A stretch of 64,000 nt of DNA from Niabella drilacis. GTDB taxonomy: Bacteria > Bacteroidota > Bacteroidia > Chitinophagales > Chitinophagaceae. The notes beneath the pieces were generated by a model that saw nothing but the letters and a program-made list of their open reading frames with translations, was not told the origin of the DNA and ran no database searches. Where the stretch lies: NCBI RefSeq assembly GCF_900101395.1, contig NZ_FMZO01000019.1, forward strand, positions 1-64,000. The letters are read 5' to 3'. Of this stretch, positions 5,601-56,586 are shown piece by piece. Position numbers and translations under genes: made by a program. Every line of letters begins with the position of its first letter. The stretch's first letter is position 1.

Positions 5601-5682
5601 TAAAGTTGGCAGGTTGAACTGTTGAAAGTTGATAGGGGCAACCTGAGAACTTCAACCTTTTAACTCTAAACTTTTAAACTTA
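5601..5682. repeat. inverted array of degenerate 7/8-mers between rplU and rpmA
   Basis: Starting just after the L21 stop, units of 7-8 bases ending in GTT follow each other (AAAGTT, GGCAGGTT, GAACTGTT, GAAAGTT). From 5648 the units are inverted and in strict 7-base register: AACTTCA, ACCTTTT, AACTCTA, AACTTTT, AAACTTA, ending next to the rpmA start. The two arms are degenerate reverse complements, so the transcript could fold imperfectly. The same architecture recurs at 46870, 51710-52221 and 54508-55045. Confidence 0.6.
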
Positions 5683-47798: not shown

Positions 47799-49823
47799 AT
47801 GAATAAGATCCTCATAGCAAACCGTGGCGAAATAGCGGTACGTATTATCCGCACTGCAAAAAAAATGCGGATCAACACTGTATTGGTCTATGCCCCCCAG
47901 GATGCCGGTGCGGCCTATCTTCATGAAGCAGACGAAACGGTATTACTGGAGGGACAATCGCTGGGAGAAACCTACCTGAACAGCCGCAATATCATCGCCG
48001 CTGCCAAAGCGGTACATGCAGATGCCATTCACCCGGGCTACGGGTTCCTTTCTGAAAATGCCGCATTTGCTGAAGCCTGCAGAAAGGAGGGCATTATTTT
48101 TATCGGTCCCACACCGGAGGCCATGGAAGCCATGGGGGATAAGATAGCGGCCCGCCGGACGGCCCAGACTGCCGGAGTACCGGTTACACCGGGTATTACC
48201 GGCACTGTACCCGAATTGCTGGCACAATACGCGTCCGTTGGCTTTCCACTGCTGATAAAGGCCGCTGCCGGCGGAGGCGGCAAAGGGATGCGCGTGGTGC
48301 AGCAGGAAACCGAATTAAAAGAGGCCCTGGAAGCAACGGCCCGTGAGGCAAAAAATTATTTTGGCGATGATACGGTTTATATTGAAAAATATATTGAGGC
48401 GCCCAGGCATGTGGAAGTACAGGTGCTCGGCGATCAGCAGGGCCATATCATTCACCTGTTTGAGCGCGAATGCTCCCTGCAACGACGCCATCAGAAGATC
48501 ATCGAAGAAGCGCCCTCTCCTACTTTAACACCCGAAGTAAGGGACCGGATCTGCCATGCCGCGGTACAGCTGGCCGCAGCGATCGGTTACCAAAGTGCCG
48601 GAACGCTCGAATTCCTGGTAGGCCCTGATCTTAGTTTCTATTTTCTTGAAATGAATACCCGCATACAGGTAGAGCACCCGGTTACCGAACTCACCACCGG
48701 TATCGACATCGTGGAACAGCAGATCCGCATCGCCCGGGGAGAACCGCTGGACATCCGCCAAAAGGACATCCGCCAAAGGGGGCATGCTATTGAATGCCGT
48801 ATTTATGCCGAAGATCCCGAACAACAGTTCTTACCGGCCCCCGGCCTCCTGCGCTTTTACAAAGAACCTTATGGCGAGCACATCCGCATCGACAGTATGC
48901 TGCTGCAACACGGCTCCCTAGTGACGGGAGATTTTGATCCGATGATCGCAAAACTCATTACCTGGGGCACAGACCGGGAGGCAGCACGCAAAAAAATGGC
49001 AGAGGCCCTTCAGCAATATTTTATATATGGCATTAAAAACAATATAGCCTTCCTGTCGGGGCTCCTTCATCACCCGGATTTTATTAAAAACAGGATCTCC
49101 ACAAAATACATCGACATCCATCTCGCCGGTCTGCTACAACAGTTCGAAGATCGGAAAAAAAAGGAGCACATACAGATTCCTTTGACCGCTGCATTGGTAT
49201 TCAGCCTGCTGCACAAAGCGGGCAATGCATCATCCATCTGGGAAACCATCGGTTACTGGCGGCGGGTTCCACAGCTTATACTGGATGTGGAGGGTAAGGA
49301 TATTGTGGTAGTGATTCACCGGCAGACGCACTCTTCAGTCGATTTTGAATATCAAACAGTATCCGGCAGTGCAACGCTTGCGGCTACAGGAGCGCAGCAA
49401 TTCAATCTTATACTGGATCAGCAATCATATCCGGTACACATTTTTGAAAGGGCGCCGGGTATATTCATCATACGTTACAACGGATTTGACTATACCGTAA
49501 AACGCAATGATATCTTGCATATAGCGGCAAACAGGTTGCCTCCTCCATCTGTCAGCTCCGCAACAGCCGGAAATATTTGTGCGCCCATGCCGGGCAAGGT
49601 GATAAAAATAGCTGTAGCCCCCGGAACCGCAGTGCACGCCGGGGATCTGCTATTAATTGTAGAAGCTATGAAAATGGAAAATAATATCCTGAGTCCGAAA
49701 GACGGAACAGTAACAGCAATAGATGTAGCCGAAGGCGATAAGGTAGACACAACGACCACATTGATTCACATAGAGGATGCGAATTCGCTGGTTCGTGAGG
49801 ACACGAACCAGGGCACAAAATAA
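47799..49823 (+). CDS. acyl-CoA carboxylase alpha subunit (biotin carboxylase + BCCP), methylcrotonyl type
   Basis: ATP-dependent carboxylation of biotin, then handing it to the beta subunit. Biotin carboxylase domain: ILIANRGEIAVRIIRTAKK (N-term), GAGAAGGGGKGMRVV-like ATP loop (KAAAGGGGKGMRVV), ERECSLQRRHQKIIEEAPS and EMNTRIQVEHPVTE. The C-terminal BCCP ends with the biotin Lys in VEAMKMENNI (about 620). Length 674 fits the MCC/PCC alpha type. The last 12 codons (from about 49788) lie in a REP hairpin (LVREDTNQGTK before the stop), so the native C-terminus has probably been altered by that repeat. It is co-directional with the hydratase. Confidence 0.92.
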   Translation: MNKILIANRGEIAVRIIRTAKKMRINTVLVYAPQDAGAAYLHEADETVLLEGQSLGETYLNSRNIIAAAKAVHADAIHPGYGFLSENAAFAEACRKEGIIFIGPTPEAMEAMGDKIAARRTAQTAGVPVTPGITGTVPELLAQYASVGFPLLIKAAAGGGGKGMRVVQQETELKEALEATAREAKNYFGDDTVYIEKYIEAPRHVEVQVLGDQQGHIIHLFERECSLQRRHQKIIEEAPSPTLTPEVRDRICHAAVQLAAAIGYQSAGTLEFLVGPDLSFYFLEMNTRIQVEHPVTELTTGIDIVEQQIRIARGEPLDIRQKDIRQRGHAIECRIYAEDPEQQFLPAPGLLRFYKEPYGEHIRIDSMLLQHGSLVTGDFDPMIAKLITWGTDREAARKKMAEALQQYFIYGIKNNIAFLSGLLHHPDFIKNRISTKYIDIHLAGLLQQFEDRKKKEHIQIPLTAALVFSLLHKAGNASSIWETIGYWRRVPQLILDVEGKDIVVVIHRQTHSSVDFEYQTVSGSATLAATGAQQFNLILDQQSYPVHIFERAPGIFIIRYNGFDYTVKRNDILHIAANRLPPPSVSSATAGNICAPMPGKVIKIAVAPGTAVHAGDLLLIVEAMKMENNILSPKDGTVTAIDVAEGDKVDTTTTLIHIEDANSLVREDTNQGTK

Positions 49824-49863
49824 TAACTTAAGCTAAAGCCACGGTTCGTGTCCTCACGAACCG
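49788..49863. repeat. REPIN copy left of the RAYT gene
   Basis: Hairpin 1: stem CTGGTTCGTG (49788-49797), loop AGGA, perfect complement at 49802-49811. Hairpin 2: stem CGGTTCGTG (49842-49850), loop TCCT, perfect complement at 49855-49863. Hairpin 1 is inside the carboxylase reading frame. Confidence 0.88.
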
Positions 49864-49882
49864 CAATAGAAATACTTTCATC

Positions 49883-50446
49883 ATGGAAGAACAGATCTTA
49901 AAAACACAACGGAAAAGCCACATAGAAATCGGAGAAATTTTCTTTTGGACGGCAACCATCCACAACTGGCAACGGTTGCTGGAACAAGACGCTTATAAAC
50001 ATATAATCATCAACCCCTTGCAACATTTATCAGACGCCGGAAAAATCGATGTTTTTGCTTTTATAATCATGCCGAATCATATTCATTTAATCTGGAGGAC
50101 CAATGCGCTAAATGGCAAGGAAACGGCACAGGGTTCCTTTCTAAAATTTACGGCACACGAATTTAAAAAGCGAATTCCAACAGAACAGAAAAATCATCTT
50201 TCTTCCTATAAAGTATCTGCAATCAATAAACAGTATGAATTCTGGCAACGGGATCCTTTAGCCATTCATCTATATACAAAAAATGTAGCTTATCAAAAAC
50301 TGGATTACATTCATTGCAATCCATGTACAGAACGCTGGAAACTGGTAGCAGACCCCTGTGATTACGTGTATTCCTCCGCAGGTTTCTATGAGAAGAACGA
50401 AAACCGGTTTGCATTTTTAAAGGATTTACGTGAAGAATTTGGTTAG
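49883..50446 (+). CDS. REP-associated tyrosine transposase (RAYT), IS200/Y1 HUH family
   Basis: A single-domain HUH nuclease that processes single-stranded REP hairpins; not a self-mobilising IS gene in most cases. The HUH metal motif is H66-I-H68 in IIMPNHIHLIW. The C-terminal part has the KLDYIHCNP and YVYSSAGFY segments seen in the Bacteroidota Y1 transposases; the catalytic Tyr is one of these. At 187 residues it is a normal length. It is bracketed by REPINs at 49788-49863 and 50456-50536, the hallmark of RAYT/REP units. Its insertion interrupts the leucine cluster without breaking a gene. Confidence 0.9.
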   Translation: MEEQILKTQRKSHIEIGEIFFWTATIHNWQRLLEQDAYKHIIINPLQHLSDAGKIDVFAFIIMPNHIHLIWRTNALNGKETAQGSFLKFTAHEFKKRIPTEQKNHLSSYKVSAINKQYEFWQRDPLAIHLYTKNVAYQKLDYIHCNPCTERWKLVADPCDYVYSSAGFYEKNENRFAFLKDLREEFG

Positions 50447-50455
50447 ACACATCTT

Positions 50456-50536
50456 CTGGTTCGTGAGGACACGAACCAGGGCGCAGAATGATATGAAGAT
50501 ACGAACTAAAGCCGCGGCTCGCGTCCTCGCGAACCG
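50456..50536. repeat. REPIN copy right of the RAYT gene
   Basis: Hairpin 1: stem CTGGTTCGTG (50456-50465), loop AGGA, perfect complement at 50470-50479; identical to the left copy. Hairpin 2: stem CGGCTCGCG (50515-50523), loop TCCT, complement at 50528-50536 with one C-A mismatch. Confidence 0.88.
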
Positions 50537-50565
50537 CAACAAAACCAAAAAAGATACATTATAAT

Positions 50566-51711
50566 ATGGACTACACATTAAGCGAAGAGCACAAGGCGAT
50601 CCGGAATATGGTGCGGTCTTTCGCGGAAAAAAACATCAAACCCCAGGCACAGGAACTGGATGAGCGGGAAAAATTTTCACCGGAGCTTACCCGGCAGATG
50701 GGCGAGCTGGGCCTGATGGGCATTTACCTTCCCGAAAAATACGGGGGAGCAGGTATGGATTACCTGGCATATATCATTGCTGTGGAAGAAATAGCGCGGG
50801 TAGACGGATCACAGGCAGCCACCCTGGCGGCACATAACTCCCTGGGCATTGGTCCCATTTACAACTATGGCACAGAGGAACAAAAACTGCAATACCTGCC
50901 GCAGCTTTGCACAGGCACAGCCCTATGGTCGTTCGGATTAACAGAACCCGGCGCCGGAAGCGACTCCCGGGCATCAAAGACCACAGCAAAAACGGACGGC
51001 GATCATTGGGTGATCAACGGCAACAAGATCTTTATCACCAATGGTTCCGTTTCACTGAACCGGGGTACTACTGTACAGGCTGTAACCAATGAAGTAAACG
51101 GCAAAAAAGAATTCACCACGATCATTGTTGACCGGGATACGCTGGGCTTCTCGCAACAAGCCATGCATGGAAAAATGATGTGGCGTGCCAGCGATACCGC
51201 CCAATTATTCTTCGACGATTGCCGCGTACCAAAATCGCATACCCTTGGACCGGTTGGGGAAGGATCAAAGATTATGTTGCGTACACTGGATGCAGGCCGG
51301 CTGAGTATTGCCGCCATGGGACTGGGCTGCGCACAGGGCGCTTTTGAAATGGCATTGAGTTACGCACAGGAACGCCGCCAATTTGGTAATTCGATCGCGT
51401 CCTTTCAGATCAACCAGTTCAAACTGGCCGATATGGCCCTGAAAATAGAACTGGCGCGTACGTTTTTATATAAGGCCTGCTGGCTGAAAGATACCCATCA
51501 GCCTTTTACAAAAGAAGCCGCCATGGCCAAGCTTTATTGCTCGGAGATCGCCAGGGAAGTAGCCGATGCTGCCGTACAGCTTCACGGGGGTTATGGCCTG
51601 ATGAAGGAATACAATATCGAACGTTTTTATCGTGATCAACGGCTCTTACAAATCGGAGAAGGTACATCAGAGATCCAACGGATCGTGATCGCAAAGCAGT
51701 TGGGGTTGTAG
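50566..51711 (+). CDS. acyl-CoA dehydrogenase (short/branched-chain family)
   Basis: A FAD enzyme that introduces the alpha-beta double bond of acyl-CoA. Key segments: KNIKPQAQELDEREKF, EKYGGAGMDYLAYIIAVEEIARVDGS, FGLTEPGAGSDSRASKTTA (FAD loop), YAQERRQFGNSIASFQINQFKLADM, and LLQIGEGTSEIQRIVIAKQL. The Glu in I-G-E-G-T is the base position of the short/medium-chain enzymes. Isovaleryl-CoA dehydrogenase usually has Ala there (GAGT) and its base elsewhere. Its location in the leucine cluster suggests isovaleryl-CoA, but by motif it is closer to the short/branched-chain type. Length 381 is normal. Confidence 0.87.
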   Translation: MDYTLSEEHKAIRNMVRSFAEKNIKPQAQELDEREKFSPELTRQMGELGLMGIYLPEKYGGAGMDYLAYIIAVEEIARVDGSQAATLAAHNSLGIGPIYNYGTEEQKLQYLPQLCTGTALWSFGLTEPGAGSDSRASKTTAKTDGDHWVINGNKIFITNGSVSLNRGTTVQAVTNEVNGKKEFTTIIVDRDTLGFSQQAMHGKMMWRASDTAQLFFDDCRVPKSHTLGPVGEGSKIMLRTLDAGRLSIAAMGLGCAQGAFEMALSYAQERRQFGNSIASFQINQFKLADMALKIELARTFLYKACWLKDTHQPFTKEAAMAKLYCSEIAREVADAAVQLHGGYGLMKEYNIERFYRDQRLLQIGEGTSEIQRIVIAKQLGL

Positions 51712-51738
51712 TTCATGGTCGAATCGTTCATAGCGGAT
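51710..51738. repeat. left arm of inverted 7-mer array around the 51814 gene
   Basis: Units AGTTCAT (51710), GGTCGAAT, CGTTCAT, AGCGGAT run in nearly strict register from inside the acyl-CoA dehydrogenase stop codon. The right arm is at 52180-52221. Confidence 0.6.
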
Positions 51739-51813
51739 AGCTTTTACTATAGACTGCAGCCTTGAAGTGCATGGATATACTCGAAAAAAACAAATACAAT
51801 AACCTAAATTCAT

Positions 51814-52164
51814 ATGGCATTCCGTTTTGAAGCATTAAATGTCTGGCAGAAGGCGGTCGATACATCCAATGAGATTGATCCTATAACGAAGCGCTTTCCC
51901 GTTGAGGAAAGATATAGCCTGTCTTCCCAGCTCAAAAAAGCAGCTGACGCTGTTGTGCTGAACATCGTCGAAGGCGCTACAGGGCAAACTGTTCCGGTAT
52001 TTAAGCAATTCTTAAATATCGCCTTGCGCCCGGCCATAGAAGTAGTGGCCGGGTTGTTTTTAGCAAAAAAGGGCAACTATATCCCAGAAGATTTGTTTAA
52101 AAAATTATACGAAGAATATGAGTTATTGAGCAAAATGATTACCAGGCTCCGTAATGCTTTATAA
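51814..52164 (+). CDS. four-helix-bundle protein (23S rRNA intervening-sequence / S23 family)
   Basis: A 116-residue all-helical protein. The pattern LNVWQKAVDTSNEI, FPVEERYSLSSQLKKAADAVVLNIVEGATGQ, FKQFLNIALRPAIEVVAGLFLAKKG, and a Leu/Lys-rich C-terminal helix is typical of the S23/IVP four-helix family, also related to Avd accessory proteins of diversity-generating retroelements. Here no reverse transcriptase or template repeat is seen. The function is unknown. It lies between an acyl-CoA dehydrogenase and HMG-CoA lyase and is flanked by inverted 7-mer arrays, as is its cousin at 54567. Confidence 0.83.
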   Translation: MAFRFEALNVWQKAVDTSNEIDPITKRFPVEERYSLSSQLKKAADAVVLNIVEGATGQTVPVFKQFLNIALRPAIEVVAGLFLAKKGNYIPEDLFKKLYEEYELLSKMITRLRNAL

Positions 52165-52179
52165 ATATATCGGACAGCG

Positions 52180-52221
52180 ATTTACCATGAACGATGATCA
52201 ATTAACTATTCACTATACGTT
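52180..52221. repeat. right arm of inverted 7-mer array, abutting the HMG-CoA lyase start
   Basis: Six units in perfect 7-base register: ATTTACC, ATGAACG, ATGATCA, ATTAACT, ATTCACT, ATACGTT; the ATG of the lyase follows directly. The reverse complements (CGTTCAT, GGTAAAT, AGTTAAT) match the left arm at 51710. Confidence 0.7.
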
Positions 52222-53088
52222 ATGATCCATGAACTTAAAATAACCGAATGCCCCCGCGATGCACAGCAGGGACTTCCCTACATCATTCCGCCGGAGAAAC
52301 GGGCGGCCTATATCAATGAACTGATGCAGGTTGGATTTGAGGTGATCGATTTCGGGAGTTTTGTGTCGCCCAAAGCAGTGCCGCAAATGGCGGACTCCGC
52401 AAAAGTGCTGGAGGGCATCAACAAAGAAGGTTCGGCTACCAGGTTGCTGGCCATTATCGGGAACGAAAGGGGTGCAACAGAAGCCGCCGCCCAGCCCAAA
52501 GTGGATATTTTAGGATTTCCCTACTCCATCTCCAATACCTTCCTGGAACGGAATATTCATTCCGATTCCTCCAAAGCGCTGCATGTGCTTGATGCAATCA
52601 CCGGTATTGCCCGGGACACCGGCAAGCAGCTCCGCGTGTATATCAGCATGGCCTTCGGCAATCCCTACGGGGACGAATGGTCAGCATTCATCGTACAGGA
52701 CGCCGTTTATTTACTGGCAGGGAAGGGTGTTCAAACCATCACGCTGTCCGATACCACCGGATTGGGCACACCGGAAATCATTTACAAACTTTTTAAAACC
52801 CTGATCCCCCGTTTTCCGGGTGTGGAACTGGGTCTCCACCTTCATACCCTTCCGGGGCAGGCGATGGAAAAAATCGACGCCGCCTGGAAAGCCGGTTGCC
52901 GTAGTTTTGATGGTGTGATCAACGGGTTGGGCGGCTGCCCGCTTACCGGTTATGAACTATTGGGCAATGTAAACACCCTTTCATTACTGCAATATTGCCG
53001 TGATCATAAGATCGCATCCGGGCTGGACGAGGCCCGTATCCGGAAGATCGCCGCGGCCTATCCCGGTTTTAACCTGTTGAAATCTTAA
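52222..53088 (+). CDS. mvaB: hydroxymethylglutaryl-CoA lyase
   Basis: A metal-dependent TIM-barrel lyase that splits HMG-CoA to acetyl-CoA and acetoacetate. ITECPRDAQQG carries the catalytic Arg-Asp pair, GFEVIDFGSFVSPKAVPQMAD the substrate region, LSDTTGLGTP and ELGLHLHTLPGQ (His-x-His metal ligands) follow, and INGLGGCPLTG holds the active-site Cys loop. At 288 residues it is full length. With the carboxylase, hydratase, dehydrogenase and CoA-transferase it completes leucine degradation. Its start codon is abutted by a 7-mer array. Confidence 0.93.
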   Translation: MIHELKITECPRDAQQGLPYIIPPEKRAAYINELMQVGFEVIDFGSFVSPKAVPQMADSAKVLEGINKEGSATRLLAIIGNERGATEAAAQPKVDILGFPYSISNTFLERNIHSDSSKALHVLDAITGIARDTGKQLRVYISMAFGNPYGDEWSAFIVQDAVYLLAGKGVQTITLSDTTGLGTPEIIYKLFKTLIPRFPGVELGLHLHTLPGQAMEKIDAAWKAGCRSFDGVINGLGGCPLTGYELLGNVNTLSLLQYCRDHKIASGLDEARIRKIAAAYPGFNLLKS

Positions 53089-53122
53089 ACAGGATGATGT
53101 AACTTACATAAAAACCACGGCT

Positions 53123-53719
53123 ATGAAATGGCTATCTGTTATCCTTCTCAGTTGTTTCTACTGTTTTTCACAGGCACAGGAAAACAGCATACCGAATACT
53201 GAGATGTTGCATCAGCAACGGATCGAAACCAACCGGAAAGGCATGTGGGTATTATCCGGATGGGGCCTGGCTAATATGGGTAGTGGTATCATTGGAGCGC
53301 TCAATACAACCAACACGGAAGTAAAAGCCTTTCACACCATGAATGCCTTATGGGGCGTGGTCAATACCGGCATTGGTGTTTTAGGGCTGATGCGCGCGAA
53401 AAGAGAAAAGAGCCTGTCCTTTTCAGACGCCGATAAGTACCGGGCTTACAAAAATGTAAAAAAACTTTACCTTATCAATGGCGGACTTGATGTGCTGTAT
53501 ATGGGCACGGGGGCGTTCTTAAAAGCGCGGGCGGACAATGCAAAAAACCCGGCCAGGAACAGGGGCTACGGAAATTCATTGATCGTTCAGGGTGCAGGAT
53601 TGTTGCTGTATGATATTACCATGTACCTGAGCCATCAAAAACAAAACCGCTACTGGAAGAAGGCCGTGCAGGAATTGGCAGTCACAGAAAACGGCATCGG
53701 TATGGTCTATCATTTTTAA
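53123..53719 (+). CDS. exported protein of unknown function, possibly DUF6992-like
   Basis: A signal peptide (MKWLSVILLSCFYCFSQAQ) is followed by two small hydrophobic stretches (GWGLANMGSGIIGAL, ALWGVVNTGIGVLGLM) and later LYLINGGLDVLYMGTGAFL and IVQGAGLLLYDITMYL. The Gly-rich helix pattern suggests a small membrane-associated protein. I do not recognise a known enzyme; the closest impression is a small Bacteroidota family of unknown function. 198 residues. It sits between mvaB and the CoA-transferase on the same strand. Confidence 0.55.
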   Translation: MKWLSVILLSCFYCFSQAQENSIPNTEMLHQQRIETNRKGMWVLSGWGLANMGSGIIGALNTTNTEVKAFHTMNALWGVVNTGIGVLGLMRAKREKSLSFSDADKYRAYKNVKKLYLINGGLDVLYMGTGAFLKARADNAKNPARNRGYGNSLIVQGAGLLLYDITMYLSHQKQNRYWKKAVQELAVTENGIGMVYHF

Positions 53720-53823
53720 GACCCCGTTCGAAGAACAGAAACGACAAAGACGCAAAGGGAGGAACACCAAAATCAGCTTAACAGCATCTGAAGGCCCAGT
53801 GCCTCAGTGGCAAAACAAATAAT

Positions 53824-54513
53824 ATGAACAAAGTTGTAAAAAATGCGCAGGAGGCGATCGCTGGTATCAAAAGCGGTATGACGCTGATGGTGGGAGGCTT
53901 CGGGCTTTGCGGCATCCCTGAAAACTGCATTAAGGCAATCACGGAAACGGATCTCAGCGCACTCACCTGCATTTCCAACAATGCAGGTGTAGATAACTTC
54001 GGACTTGGCCTCCTGCTTCAGAAAAAACAGATCCGGAAAATGATCTCCTCTTATGTTGGTGAGAACGCCGAATTTGAGCGGCAGCTCCTACAGGGAGAAC
54101 TGGAAGTGGAACTGATTCCCCAGGGTACCCTTGCCGAACGTTGCCGGGCAGGCGGAGCAGGTATCCCTGCCTTTTATGTTCCCGCGGGATATGGTACCGA
54201 AGTTGCGGCCGGCAAGGAGGTGCGGGATTTTAATGGCAAGCCTCATTTACTGGAATACGCCTTAACGGCCGATTTTGCCATTGTAAAAGCCTGGAAGGGC
54301 GATACCCATGGCAACCTTATTTACAAAGAAACAGCAGGCAATTTCAACCATCCGATGGCCACCGCGGGAAGGATCACCATTGCGGAAGTGGAAGAACTGG
54401 TACCGGCAGGGCAGCTGAACCCGATGCAGATCCACACGCCGGGTGTATATATAAAACGCATCTTCCAGGGCACGCATTATGAAAAAAGGATTGAGCAATT
54501 AACGGAAAGCTAG
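53824..54513 (+). CDS. scoA: 3-oxoacid CoA-transferase subunit A
   Basis: Forms, with subunit B, the succinyl-CoA:3-ketoacid CoA-transferase that activates acetoacetate to acetoacetyl-CoA. [18 protein letters not shown], the [18 protein letters not shown] segment and the [24 protein letters not shown] region are typical of the alpha subunit. The length, 229 residues, is normal. It is separated from its partner by about 550 bases containing a four-helix-bundle gene in an inverted 7-mer array, which is unusual because the two subunits are normally adjacent. Confidence 0.93.
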
Positions 54514-54541
54514 TAGAGAATAGCAAGTAGCCAGTAGGAAT
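54508..54541. repeat. left arm of inverted 7-mer array between scoA and scoB
   Basis: Units of 7 bases in strict register: AGCTAGT (spans the scoA stop), AGAGAAT, AGCAAGT, AGCCAGT, AGGAATT. They are directly followed by AT-rich DNA and the embedded 54567 gene. A second short copy (TAGAGAA...TAGCAAG) follows the stop of that gene at 54936. Confidence 0.65.
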
Positions 54542-54566
54542 TATTCTAAACTTAAATATAAATAGC

Positions 54567-54938
54567 ATGTTAGAACTGTCGCACAAAAAACTACAGGTAT
54601 ATCAATTTGCTTTACAATTAGTAAAAGAAATCGATCTACACACCCAGGCTTATCCTAAAGAAGAACAATTTGTTTTAGTTAGTCAGCTTCGCAGAGCTGC
54701 TATTTCTGTTTGTAGTAATCTCGCTGAAGGAGCTGCAAGAAACTCAAAAGTTGAAAAGAAAAGATTTTATGAAATCTCCCGAAGTTCATTAGTAGAAGTT
54801 GATACACAAATAGAAACATCACTAATTCTTGAATACTTAAAAAAAGATAAAATTTTAAAACTTGAAGAATATCTTGAATCGATATTCAGAATGTTAAGTA
54901 ACATAATTGCAAATTTAGAATCGGGAAGCAAGAAATAG
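54567..54938 (+). CDS. four-helix-bundle protein (S23 family) embedded between scoA and scoB
   Basis: A 123-residue helical protein of the same type as the 51814 gene. The core HKKLQVYQFALQLVKEIDLHT, SQLRRAAISVCSNLAEGAARNSK, and VEVDTQIETSLILEYLKK matches the S23/IVP four-helix family. DNA is clearly more AT-rich than the flanking scoA and scoB, a sign of separate origin. It is bracketed by inverted 7-mer arrays of consensus AGNNAGT. Function is unknown; no linked reverse transcriptase is present. Confidence 0.85.
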   Translation: MLELSHKKLQVYQFALQLVKEIDLHTQAYPKEEQFVLVSQLRRAAISVCSNLAEGAARNSKVEKKRFYEISRSSLVEVDTQIETSLILEYLKKDKILKLEEYLESIFRMLSNIIANLESGSKK

Positions 54939-54974
54939 AGAAGGAAAATAGCAAGCCGTATAATCCCATTCGTT

Positions 54975-55045
54975 ACTTGCTGTTCTCCTGCCAACCACTC
55001 CCCACTAGCTACTAATCACTGGCCACGCTCTATTTCCTACTCGTT
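54975..55045. repeat. right arm of inverted 7-mer array between scoA and scoB
   Basis: Ten consecutive units, all 7 bases except one of 8: ACTTGCT (54975), GTTCTCCT, GCCAACC, ACTCCCC, ACTAGCT, ACTAATC, ACTGGCC, ACGCTCT, ATTTCCT, ACTCGTT (ends 55045). Reverse complements include AGCAAGT, AGCTAGT, GGCCAGT and AGGAAAT, matching the left-arm units at 54508-54541. Confidence 0.75.
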
Positions 55046-55060
55046 AAAAAAACAAAAAAA

Positions 55061-55720
55061 ATGAGCCTTACAAAACAACAAATAGCACAACGCATTGCGC
55101 AGGAGTTAAAAGACGGGTACTATGTAAACCTGGGTATCGGTATTCCCACCCTGGTAGCCAATTATATTCCCGAAGGCATAGAAGTGGTACTGCAATCGGA
55201 GAATGGTATGTTGGGTATGGGGCCCTTCCCTAAAAAAGGCATGGCTGATCCGGACCTGATCAATGCCGGCAAGCAAACAGTCACCCTGCTGCCCGGCGGC
55301 GTGTATTTTGATTCCGCCACGAGCTTTGCCATGATCCGCGGGGGCCATATCGATCTTACGGTGCTGGGGGCTTTTGAAGTAAGCGATACCGGCGATATCG
55401 CCAGCTGGAAGATCCCGGGCAAAATGGTAAAAGGCATGGGCGGGGCGATGGACCTGGTAGCTGCGGCCAAAAATATCATTGTGGCGATGCAACACACGAG
55501 TAAGGATGGGCAATCCAAGCTATTAAAACAATGTACCCTGCCCCTTACAGGCGTAAAATGCATTAAAAAAATTGTAAGCGATCTGGCCGTACTCGAAATT
55601 ACTGATGAAGGCTTTGTGCTGCTTGAACGCGCTCCCGGCGTATCTGTGGAGGATATAAAAAAAGCGACCGAAGGGCGGCTGGTCGTAAAAGGAGATGTCC
55701 CCGAAATAAAACTGGGGTAA
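55061..55720 (+). CDS. scoB: 3-oxoacid CoA-transferase subunit B
   Basis: Carries the catalytic Glu that forms the enzyme-CoA thioester; it is in VVLQSENGMLGMGPFP. The N-terminus LKDGYYVNLGIGIPTLVANYIPEG and GHIDLTVLGAFEVSDTGDIASWK are typical. The 219-residue length is normal. It is the last gene of the leucine-to-acetoacetyl-CoA cluster. The preceding gap carries ten 7-mers of an inverted array before its A-rich leader. Confidence 0.93.
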   Translation: MSLTKQQIAQRIAQELKDGYYVNLGIGIPTLVANYIPEGIEVVLQSENGMLGMGPFPKKGMADPDLINAGKQTVTLLPGGVYFDSATSFAMIRGGHIDLTVLGAFEVSDTGDIASWKIPGKMVKGMGGAMDLVAAAKNIIVAMQHTSKDGQSKLLKQCTLPLTGVKCIKKIVSDLAVLEITDEGFVLLERAPGVSVEDIKKATEGRLVVKGDVPEIKLG

Positions 55721-55815
55721 CCCGGCACAGCATCTCATTATTCGCAGCAATCCTTCGCGGAAGCTGCAGCAAATAGCATCAGCCTTCAACAGATCCTGAT
55801 CGCTGTTTACCGCAT

Positions 55816-56190
55816 CTAGGCCTCCTGCCAGCCTCCCTTTCTTTTGGCAATCTCAATAAGCCGCAGGCCTTCTTCCGTCATTTTTCCTTCGGATATCAGA
55901 CGCTTTGCCCGCTCTATATTGGGCTGGCTCCAGCTGCTTTTACGGGAATTACGCGGTGAAAATGTGAGGTAGTAACTGCCGGCATCCCGTTTTTTGCACA
56001 AACTGTCGATCCACCCAAAACAAAGCGCCTCTTCCGTTGCCGCAATACGGTCTACTGATTGCATGCTACTCCCTTTATGAAAAAGGATCAGCCACACTGG
56101 TTCCTGTTTACCCGCATTTTTTTGCAGCCAGCTTCGCCATTGGCGGCGGTTTTTGGCATATACCGCTACTTTACCATCTTTTGTTTCCAT
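55816..56190 (-). pseudogene. YdeI/OmdA-family gene with a frameshift
   Basis: The frame VYAKNRRQWRSWLQKN, EPVWLILFHKGSSM, EALCFGWIDSLCKKRD and YYLTFSPRNSRKSSWSQPN matches the YdeI family (often called bacteriocin-protection or OmpD-associated). The family is about 190 residues, but this one stops after 124 at RKGGWQEA. Restoring one base in the following GGCCTAG gives W-Q-E-A-L-D-A-V-N-S, exactly the family continuation, and the frame then stays open to about 55775. The rest of the C-terminal domain is lost or degraded before scoB. So the gene is probably a frameshifted, truncated pseudogene, unless the shorter form is still functional. Confidence 0.65.
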
Positions 56191-56192
56191 CG

Positions 56193-56411
56193 TTAAAGGG
56201 TTTTATTATCTTTCATTATAGCTTTTGTGTCTTCTTTACTGCTTATCATTTTAAAAACCGAACCAAAGGGATCTACAACCAATGCCGTTTCAAAATATCC
56301 TCTGCCCTCGCTGTGGTCCGCAGGAGATTGCAGTGCCTTGCGATCCTGTATCAGCAACCGGTACAGGGCTTGCTGCAGATCATCTACCTGCCATCGGGTT
56401 ATTGTTGTCAT
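56193..56411 (-). pseudogene. VOC-family gene fragment truncated at a MITE
   Basis: Only the C-terminal half of a vicinal-oxygen-chelate (glyoxalase-like) protein is present: ITRWQVDDLQQALYRLLIQ, then GYFETALVVDPFGSVFKMI, which is the usual last module. The ATG at 56411 is the first after the MITE end; an ATG inside the MITE (56444) reads into it in frame. No N-terminal half is seen beyond the MITE, so its first half is gone. The stop lies 2 bases before the YdeI-like start. Confidence 0.6.
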
Positions 56412-56425
56412 ATCATCAGGATTTA

Positions 56426-56586
56426 GAGCCTGTTTAAAATTCATTCAATGGCTTTATTATGGCTGTTTTGGGCTGCAACTGCGTTAAACTTTTCGCCATA
56501 GTGGCCTACTATGCCTGCAAAATTTTCCTTGTTTCGCTCCAAAATAGCTTCATAATAAATTCCATCAATAAAATTTAAACAGGCTC
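56426..56586. mobile_element. MITE copy 2, flanked by TTA duplications
   Basis: 161 bases with the same GAGCCTGTTTAAA ends as copy 1 at 31885; TTA at 56423-56425 and at 56587-56589. Most of the 150 bases match copy 1; copy 2 carries an extra 11 bases (CTTTATTATGG) near 56452. It lies between the truncated VOC gene and mrdA. Confidence 0.87.

Follow-up and report, generated by a model that had tools for sequence, protein, structure and literature searches.

PF05635 genes and inverted arrays of 7- or 8-nucleotide units form single units in junctions between bacterial genes

Between scoA and scoB, the two CoA transferase subunit genes of Niabella drilacis, lies a short gene of the 23S rRNA intervening-sequence protein (IVP) family, bordered on both sides by 7-nucleotide (nt) units in opposite orientations. 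What is such a gene doing in a protein operon, and does it belong together with the repeats around it? We addressed this question in the window (the whole stretch of DNA analysed, 64,000 nt of contig NZ_FMZO01000019.1), in the rest of the genome and at PF05635 loci from relatives and other phyla. The PF05635 gene and the inverted arrays on its two sides, built of 7- or 8-nt repeats, form a single unit, which in relatives is present, decayed, reduced to its arrays or absent, and the same type of gene recurs with the same type of unit at unrelated places. With moderate confidence, we interpret this unit as a selfish insertion element resembling an intervening sequence (IVS), made up of one PF05635 gene and its array ends and situated in operon junctions.

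The gene and its arrays between scoA and scoB

The gene matches the PF05635 profile at 106.8 bits (curated cut-off, 33.8), in agreement with the first-pass annotation, which had described an S23-type gene between the two subunits of one enzyme (Table 1). The profile also matches PDB entries 2gsc and 2rld, in both of which the sequence is present as five chains, and the available part of PMC4990558 describes the IVP as a pentamer, stated there after Lin et al. 2006. As that annotation had claimed, the gene is richer in AT than its flanks, with a GC content of 0.31 versus 0.51 in scoA and 0.50 in scoB. The element is located between protein genes and not inside an rRNA gene helix, and an Rfam search of positions 49,500–56,500 returned a sub-threshold MIR156 at 49,785–49,870 as its sole match. 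Pfam comparison in the window covered five genes; within the scoA-scoB unit it covered the PF05635 ORF only, and no transposase was found there. The other ORFs in the unit are short antisense ones of 70–75 amino acids (aa) according to the ORF list.

Table 1 Coordinates of the two PF05635 elements of the window and of the scoA and scoB genes
Feature	Position	Strand	Basis
scoA, upstream host gene, CoA transferase subunit	53824..54513	+	Pfam CoA_trans
Left array, AGCTAGT AGAGAAT AGCAAGT AGCCAGT AGGAATT	54508..54545	+	lag-7 identity 0.61
PF05635 (23S_rRNA_IVP) gene, 123 aa, four-helix-bundle family	54567..54938	+	Pfam E 8e-31
Right array, inverted, about seven clear units up to the scoB leader	54939..55046	-	sequence, lag-7 test
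scoB, downstream host gene	55061..55720	+	Pfam CoA_trans
Second element, left array TAGTTCATGGTCGAATCGTTCATAGC	51709..51734	+	sequence; at stop of acyl-CoA-dehydrogenase-like gene (by eye)
Second element, PF05635 gene, 116 aa	51814..52164	+	Pfam E 9e-28
Second element, right array	52181..52234	-	lag-7 array; runs into HMG-CoA-lyase-like gene start (by eye)

The left arm consists of five 7-nt units, the first of them at the scoA stop codon, and its lag-7 identity was equalled by none of 2,000 dinucleotide shuffles; for the right arm (54,951–55,046) the identity was 0.39, equalled by 14 of 2,000. The inverted match between the two arms scored 14, a value equalled by none of 500 shuffles. The 7-nt periodicity thus exceeds that of shuffled sequence, the check that the first-pass annotation had set, and its claims of reverse-complementary arms, of a left array beginning at the scoA stop and of a right one reaching into the scoB leader are borne out. 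Its count of ten inverted units on the right was too high, since about seven are good and the register then loosens; the part nearest the gene is a short stretch in direct orientation, AAAATAGCAAG. Overall, this locus is a weak example of its kind: the best 42-nt lag-7 window scores 23, narrowly under our cut-off of 24, which places it among the 45 of 202 PF05635 loci without an array call.

The second PF05635 element of the window has arms of the TTCATGG type. Elsewhere in the window, at 5,602–5,681, inverted heptamer arrays (AAAGTTG.. / ..AACTTTTAAACTT) without a PF05635 gene stand directly before the start codon of an ORF that by eye resembles ribosomal protein bL27. A 187-aa ORF at 49,883–50,446 looks like a REP-associated transposase by eye and had no Pfam match at E 0.001.

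Arrays and arm pairing at PF05635 loci

Among 202 PF05635 loci, which were drawn from the top of score-ranked lists (favouring intact members) and are mutually related, 157 have an array of 7-, 8- or 9-nt units within 200 nt, compared with 120 of 1,205 tiles taken from the same loci at a distance of 400 nt or more (73 of 1,205 for lag 7 alone); all of these counts depend on a single cut-off, 24 of 42 comparisons. The first-pass annotation had proposed to look for such arrays in related genomes and to test S23 genes for enrichment inside them, and the unit does recur widely. Lag 7 gave an array within 200 nt at 119 of the loci, lag 14 at 68, lag 8 at 40, lag 12 at 7, and lags 4, 5, 6, 9, 10, 11 and 13 at one to six each. 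Lags 7, 14 and 21 were prominent in the 180-nt flanks on both sides (own-genome, genus and family loci), and the lag-7 peak was absent from stretches 720–900 nt from PF05635 genes.

Across seven locus sets and two flanks, with six loci truncated at the end of a contig (L037, L082, L090, L097, L098 and L103) omitted, lag 7 ranked first in 12 of 14 cases; the exceptions were the upstream flank of the own-genome set, where it came after lag 14, and the downstream flank of the named Bacteroidota set, where it came after lag 8. The named loci were found with one motif, SIPSNIAE, and we judged by eye from the titles of their records whether they belonged to Bacteroidota or to another phylum. For loci of other phyla (n = 40), many from metagenome bins that may be mislabelled, lag 7 came first on both sides. 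The elements lie in junctions between neighbouring, usually co-directional genes. The N. drilacis genome has 13 PF05635 matches, three of them under the curated cut-off, and by eye most are accompanied by locus-specific inverted arrays.

The two arms of a locus belong together. Over 65 loci, the match between an upstream flank and the reverse complement of its own downstream flank averaged 17.0, versus 9.8 with other loci, and none of 5,000 permutations reached the own-locus value. The direct-orientation match was also above the cross-locus level (11.1 versus 9.3; 0 of 5,000 permutations), indicating that some direct copies exist too. Further sets, in which each locus was compared with at most ten randomly chosen partners for the cross-locus values, gave own and cross means of 15.9 and 9.7 for the phylum set (17 of 30 loci above the cross-locus 95% line), 16.8 and 10.4 for named Bacteroidota (20 of 40), and 17.9 and 9.2 for other phyla (27 of 37, with 3 of 40 left out for short flanks). 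In the order set (17.0 and 11.2; 5 of 27) a unit type common to many loci probably accounts for the high cross scores.

Paired arms raise the question of whether the element acts at the RNA level, that is, whether the two arms form a stem within the polycistronic mRNA that RNase III then cuts, the insertion being tolerated because it is removed or insulated and the protein being secondary or a binder of the paired-arm RNA. We consider this rather unlikely. Pairing maintained in the sense RNA would favour G.U over A.C mismatches, yet transition mismatches between the arms comprised 222 G.U and 286 A.C (155 loci), or 195 and 254 when the 15 antisense loci were set aside (145 loci); in the absence of an excess of G.U, an RNA stem kept by selection is not supported. 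Those antisense insertions also retain their arms, 10 of 15 with a score of at least 13, although the sense bias itself is strong and speaks for an RNA-level element: by ORF calls, 157 of 193 genes are in sense between co-directional genes (++), 15 are antisense (--) and 21 are arranged otherwise. The same explanation draws on the protein family shared with rRNA IVS proteins and on the Coxiella IVS, which, in the accessible text of PMC4990558, is bordered by complementary sequence, is cut by RNase III and carries GACAGAT heptamers before its ORF.

Eight of the 15 antisense copies (L014, L017, L021, L022, L023, L088, L096 and L104) belong by eye to one subfamily of the KLxxWQ+SH type, so orientation may be a subfamily property.

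Protein relatedness, insertion sites and age

We compared protein similarity with unit sharing at 175 of the 202 loci, leaving out ORFs that contained stops, were of odd length or had short flanks. Upstream arms were matched to the downstream arms of other loci in those 14,780 of 15,225 pairs whose flanks showed no homology by blastn, the one screen applied, so that diverged orthologous sites may remain. The unit was shared in 46% of 87 pairs with a protein similarity of at least 0.65, in 6.2% at 0.50–0.65 and in 0.4 to 2.2% below 0.5, compared with 5.7% in the top band and 0.1–0.4% below it in the direct-orientation control. Rank correlations were 0.115 for the inverted comparison and -0.006 for the direct control, and a Mantel test on the inverted-minus-direct difference gave 0 of 999. 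Judged by record titles, unit-sharing pairs cross phyla, for example among L160, from the order of N. drilacis, L260, from a bin titled Ruminococcus, and L277, from Thiohalocapsa halophila. Joint inheritance or transfer of gene and unit could contribute to this match.

Unit length follows the protein as well. It is 7 nt at 127 of the 202 loci and 8 nt at 41, with no label at 34, and the first-pass description of a 7-mer unit accordingly stands for the 7-nt form, beside which 8-nt and probably 9-nt versions occur elsewhere. When the 175 proteins (149 with a unit-length label, 26 without) are placed on a quick tree, the label changes 10 times, versus at least 24 times in all of 300 shuffles. One clade (support 81) has 22 eight-unit, 4 seven-unit and 4 unlabelled members, and its eight-unit members come from Flavobacteria, other Bacteroidota and bins titled Nitrospirae, KSB1 and Desulfobacteraceae; the eight-unit sequences differ among them. 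A second 8-nt clade has three members, all from the genus of N. drilacis, and eight 8-nt loci fall outside both clades. This tracking of the protein tree by unit length is the strongest single hint that the protein may read the array, though gene and array inherited together could account for part of it. Nature offers a test of how unit length depends on the protein at L364 (genome G298, around 820–1,720), where two PF05635 genes adjoin and, by eye, one has 9-nt units, GTGATGAAC, and the other 7-nt GTGACTC units.

The dependence of the arrays on the gene can also be asked from the opposite side, because lag-7 arrays do occur away from PF05635 genes. They were found at 20 places in 464 kb sampled of the 6,099-kb N. 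drilacis genome (other lags, 1–15), one of which is an arm of the second IVP element, and gene-less arrays are common, including those with other heptamers at scoA-scoB and HMG-CoA-lyase junctions within the genus. STRR, the short heptameric repeats of cyanobacteria, are the model for regarding such arrays as an independent, general intergenic repeat inside which PF05635 genes merely lie or were captured. We hold this to be very improbable, since arrays are strongly enriched at PF05635 genes, their arms pair locus by locus, their unit length follows the protein tree and some solo arrays have visibly arisen by gene loss (scoA-scoB of genome G002).

Five heptamer arrays lie within about 7 kb of the N. 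drilacis genome (L111, 5,980–12,822), away from PF05635 matches; each differs (AACCTGA, AATCAGA, AATCTCA, GCCTTGA and AAACCTT types), and by eye four of the five stand closely before an ATG.

We examined the insertion sites in relatives for states in which the unit is lacking or incomplete. Among the 14 genus genomes with scoA, 6 have the complete element at scoA-scoB, G002 has the same heptamer with the gene gone, G003 has a decayed gene, and 6 have gene-less arrays of different heptamers. The empty junction that the first-pass annotation had sought was thus met in none of these 14. It did appear in other genera, where 17 of 29 junctions are tight (1–44 bp) and array-free by eye; these 29 genomes and our own are the best 30 of 101 matching genomes. 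Three of the remaining junctions have gene-less arrays, one is doubtful (57 bp), four measure 65–112 bp without a clear array, one lacks an adjoining scoB, and that of L148, from another genus, holds a different IVP type with TTTAACC arrays.

The remaining two of these 29 junctions, from two other genera (L154 and L156), contain 755 and 761 bp of other sequence that is coding-like by eye.

Three further sites within the genus are similarly patchy. At the HMG-CoA-lyase site of the second element, the unit is full in 3 of 14 genomes and internally deleted in 2, and the gene is absent from 9. Site 6 (L006) is occupied in 7 of 17 genomes, the other 10 having 44–74 bp without the gene and, in some cases, heptamer-like sequence of their own. 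At site 4 (L004), copies are recognisable by eye in 7 of 17, several of them decayed; one genome has a remnant, 7 have 54–102 bp without the gene and 2 have other sequence.

The subfamily of the window IVP (at least 75% identity) was found in 7 of 17 genus genomes. In one of them, G006, it stands at another junction, again with AGTAG-type arrays, and the scoA-scoB junction of that genome has a different array. With overlaps included in the count, an AGTAGNN array pattern matched 2, 18, 39, 26, 37, 97 and 45 times in the subfamily carriers G000, G005, G006, G007, G008, G015 and G016 and 0–13 in the other ten genomes, an excess that is confounded because a reversed-AGTAGNN control was likewise highest in most subfamily-carrying genomes. 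AGTAGNN-type arrays recur every ~112 bp over 600 bp at G008:C1:1794568-1795166, forming a higher-order tandem repeat.

Ages were compared at fourfold sites. In two of ten scoA-scoB ortholog pairs the IVP is much younger than its flanks: 31/38 versus 72/193 between G000 and G007 (p 5e-7) and 30/36 versus 95/189 between G008 and G016 (p 2e-4). Of the 40 ortholog pairs compared over the four sites, none of the other 38 had a clearly younger IVP after correction, and at the three sites other than scoA-scoB (30 pairs) the nearest p was 0.005, nonsignificant after correction. Movement is therefore rare, inheritance is mostly vertical, and homing as a rule was rejected. In pairs of empty and filled junctions the flanks are too diverged for the edges to be read, and no target-site duplication was resolved.

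In two unsaturated pairs the IVP has dN/dS values of 0.15 and 0.14. This purifying selection, the retention of the site 6 copy in 7 of 17 genus genomes and arrays that span stop codon to next start would suit a domesticated regulatory module, in which the unit tunes the downstream gene (for example, by translational coupling) and the protein autoregulates through the leader array, but we regard such a module as the least probable explanation given the patchy presence at all four genus sites, host genes that vary between sites and copies that often decay.

PF05635 was present at E 0.001 in 17/17 genus, 87/117 family and 162/198 order genomes (overlapping samples) and in 232/296 genomes of the phylum sample (220 above the curated cut-off), compared with 0/14 control genomes. 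Matches to PF05635 genes were identified in 21 plasmid records, all below 60% identity, and none among 50,697 phage records. All four plasmid copies inspected (of the 21 records; all cyanobacterial) carry inverted heptamer arrays; they are located between ribonucleotide reductase subunit genes (in antisense), between cas6 and cas4 (twice) and between an AAA-ATPase gene and a ParB-family gene. A gene common in many bacterial groups that stands between facing repeat arrays and has entered gene junctions together with them suggests a little-noticed selfish DNA element with a protein that reads repeats.

Proposed mechanism and comparison with known systems

If the unit is a selfish, IVS-like insertion element, its homopentameric protein, as in the solved relatives, would bind its own array in such a way that every repeat is contacted by a single subunit, and the protein would consequently fix unit length while unit sequence would follow the protein. 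The ring protein TRAP, which binds spaced triplets, offers an analogy for such binding. Protein on both ends would protect the element, bring its ends together or help to copy it. Because the gene is mostly in sense, transcription of the host operon probably reads through it and so expresses it. We saw no catalytic gene in the unit; movement or homing would need a host enzyme (reverse transcriptase or recombination) not encoded there. Avd, which resembles PF05635 (2GSC versus 4DWL) in the available part of PMC10053308, works with reverse transcriptase on RNA according to the accessible text of PMC12875486, making an RNA-templated route of movement a fair guess.

We tentatively extend this to a wider reading of pan-bacterial minimal mobile elements in which a ring protein reads the arrays and a borrowed enzyme does the copying, with IVSs and much intergenic repeat DNA as members or remains. 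Each protein clade would then determine how long its units are (7 or 8 nt, perhaps also 9) and each subfamily which sequence they have; the protein would join the two inverted arrays, the borrowed enzyme would copy the element into operon junctions, and the remains would cover short intergenic repeats of cyanobacteria and Bacteroidota. A unit length that tracks the protein gives the PF05635 family a concrete, testable candidate ligand. It also carries a warning for annotation, as PF05635 genes within operons are probably insertions and not operon members.

In the literature covered, which mostly excludes subscription journals, we found neither an established function for PF05635 nor a link of PF05635 genes in general to short repeat arrays. 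The first-pass annotation had called the unit undescribed and different from known transposons, without terminal inverted repeats of the usual kind. The arrays are themselves inverted ends, matched locus by locus as in a DNA transposon or insertion sequence; unlike in these, no transposase was found among the ORFs searched. The unit recurs widely, and it has relatives in rRNA intervening sequences. Like STRR and TAACTGA-type repeats, the arrays are tandem 7-nt intergenic units of patchy distribution; what we add is their connection with PF05635 and the finding that the arms pair in inverted orientation. In the available part of PMC4679880, TAACTGA repeats are described from Beggiatoaceae, Cyanobacteria and Bacteroidetes, with S1, Csp or Csr proteins proposed as binders; the terms S23, intervening and helix bundle are absent from that paper. 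Unlike diversity-generating retroelements, which use Avd, the unit itself has no template or variable repeats or reverse transcriptase that we noticed. PF05635 genes in cas loci, as given in the accessible portions of PMC3936711 and PMC10910872, likewise stand between operon genes, and the two plasmid copies between cas6 and cas4 carry heptamer arrays; we explain those reports by insertion at the junctions of operon genes and not by a role in CRISPR.

Among known systems, the unit comes closest to the ORF-bearing 23S rRNA IVS of Leptospira, Coxiella and others, with which it shares the protein family. Both have an ORF between complementary ends and a sporadic presence, and in Coxiella heptamers lie beside the ORF, as far as the available text of PMC4990558 describes it. 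Unlike rRNA IVSs, elements of the scoA-scoB type are found in protein operons, the RNA-stem test was negative for them, and they end in arrays whose 7- or 8-nt units are degenerate and differ from locus to locus. Seen together, they would join three loose ends: ORF-bearing rRNA IVSs, bacterial heptamer repeats and PF05635 genes in cas loci.
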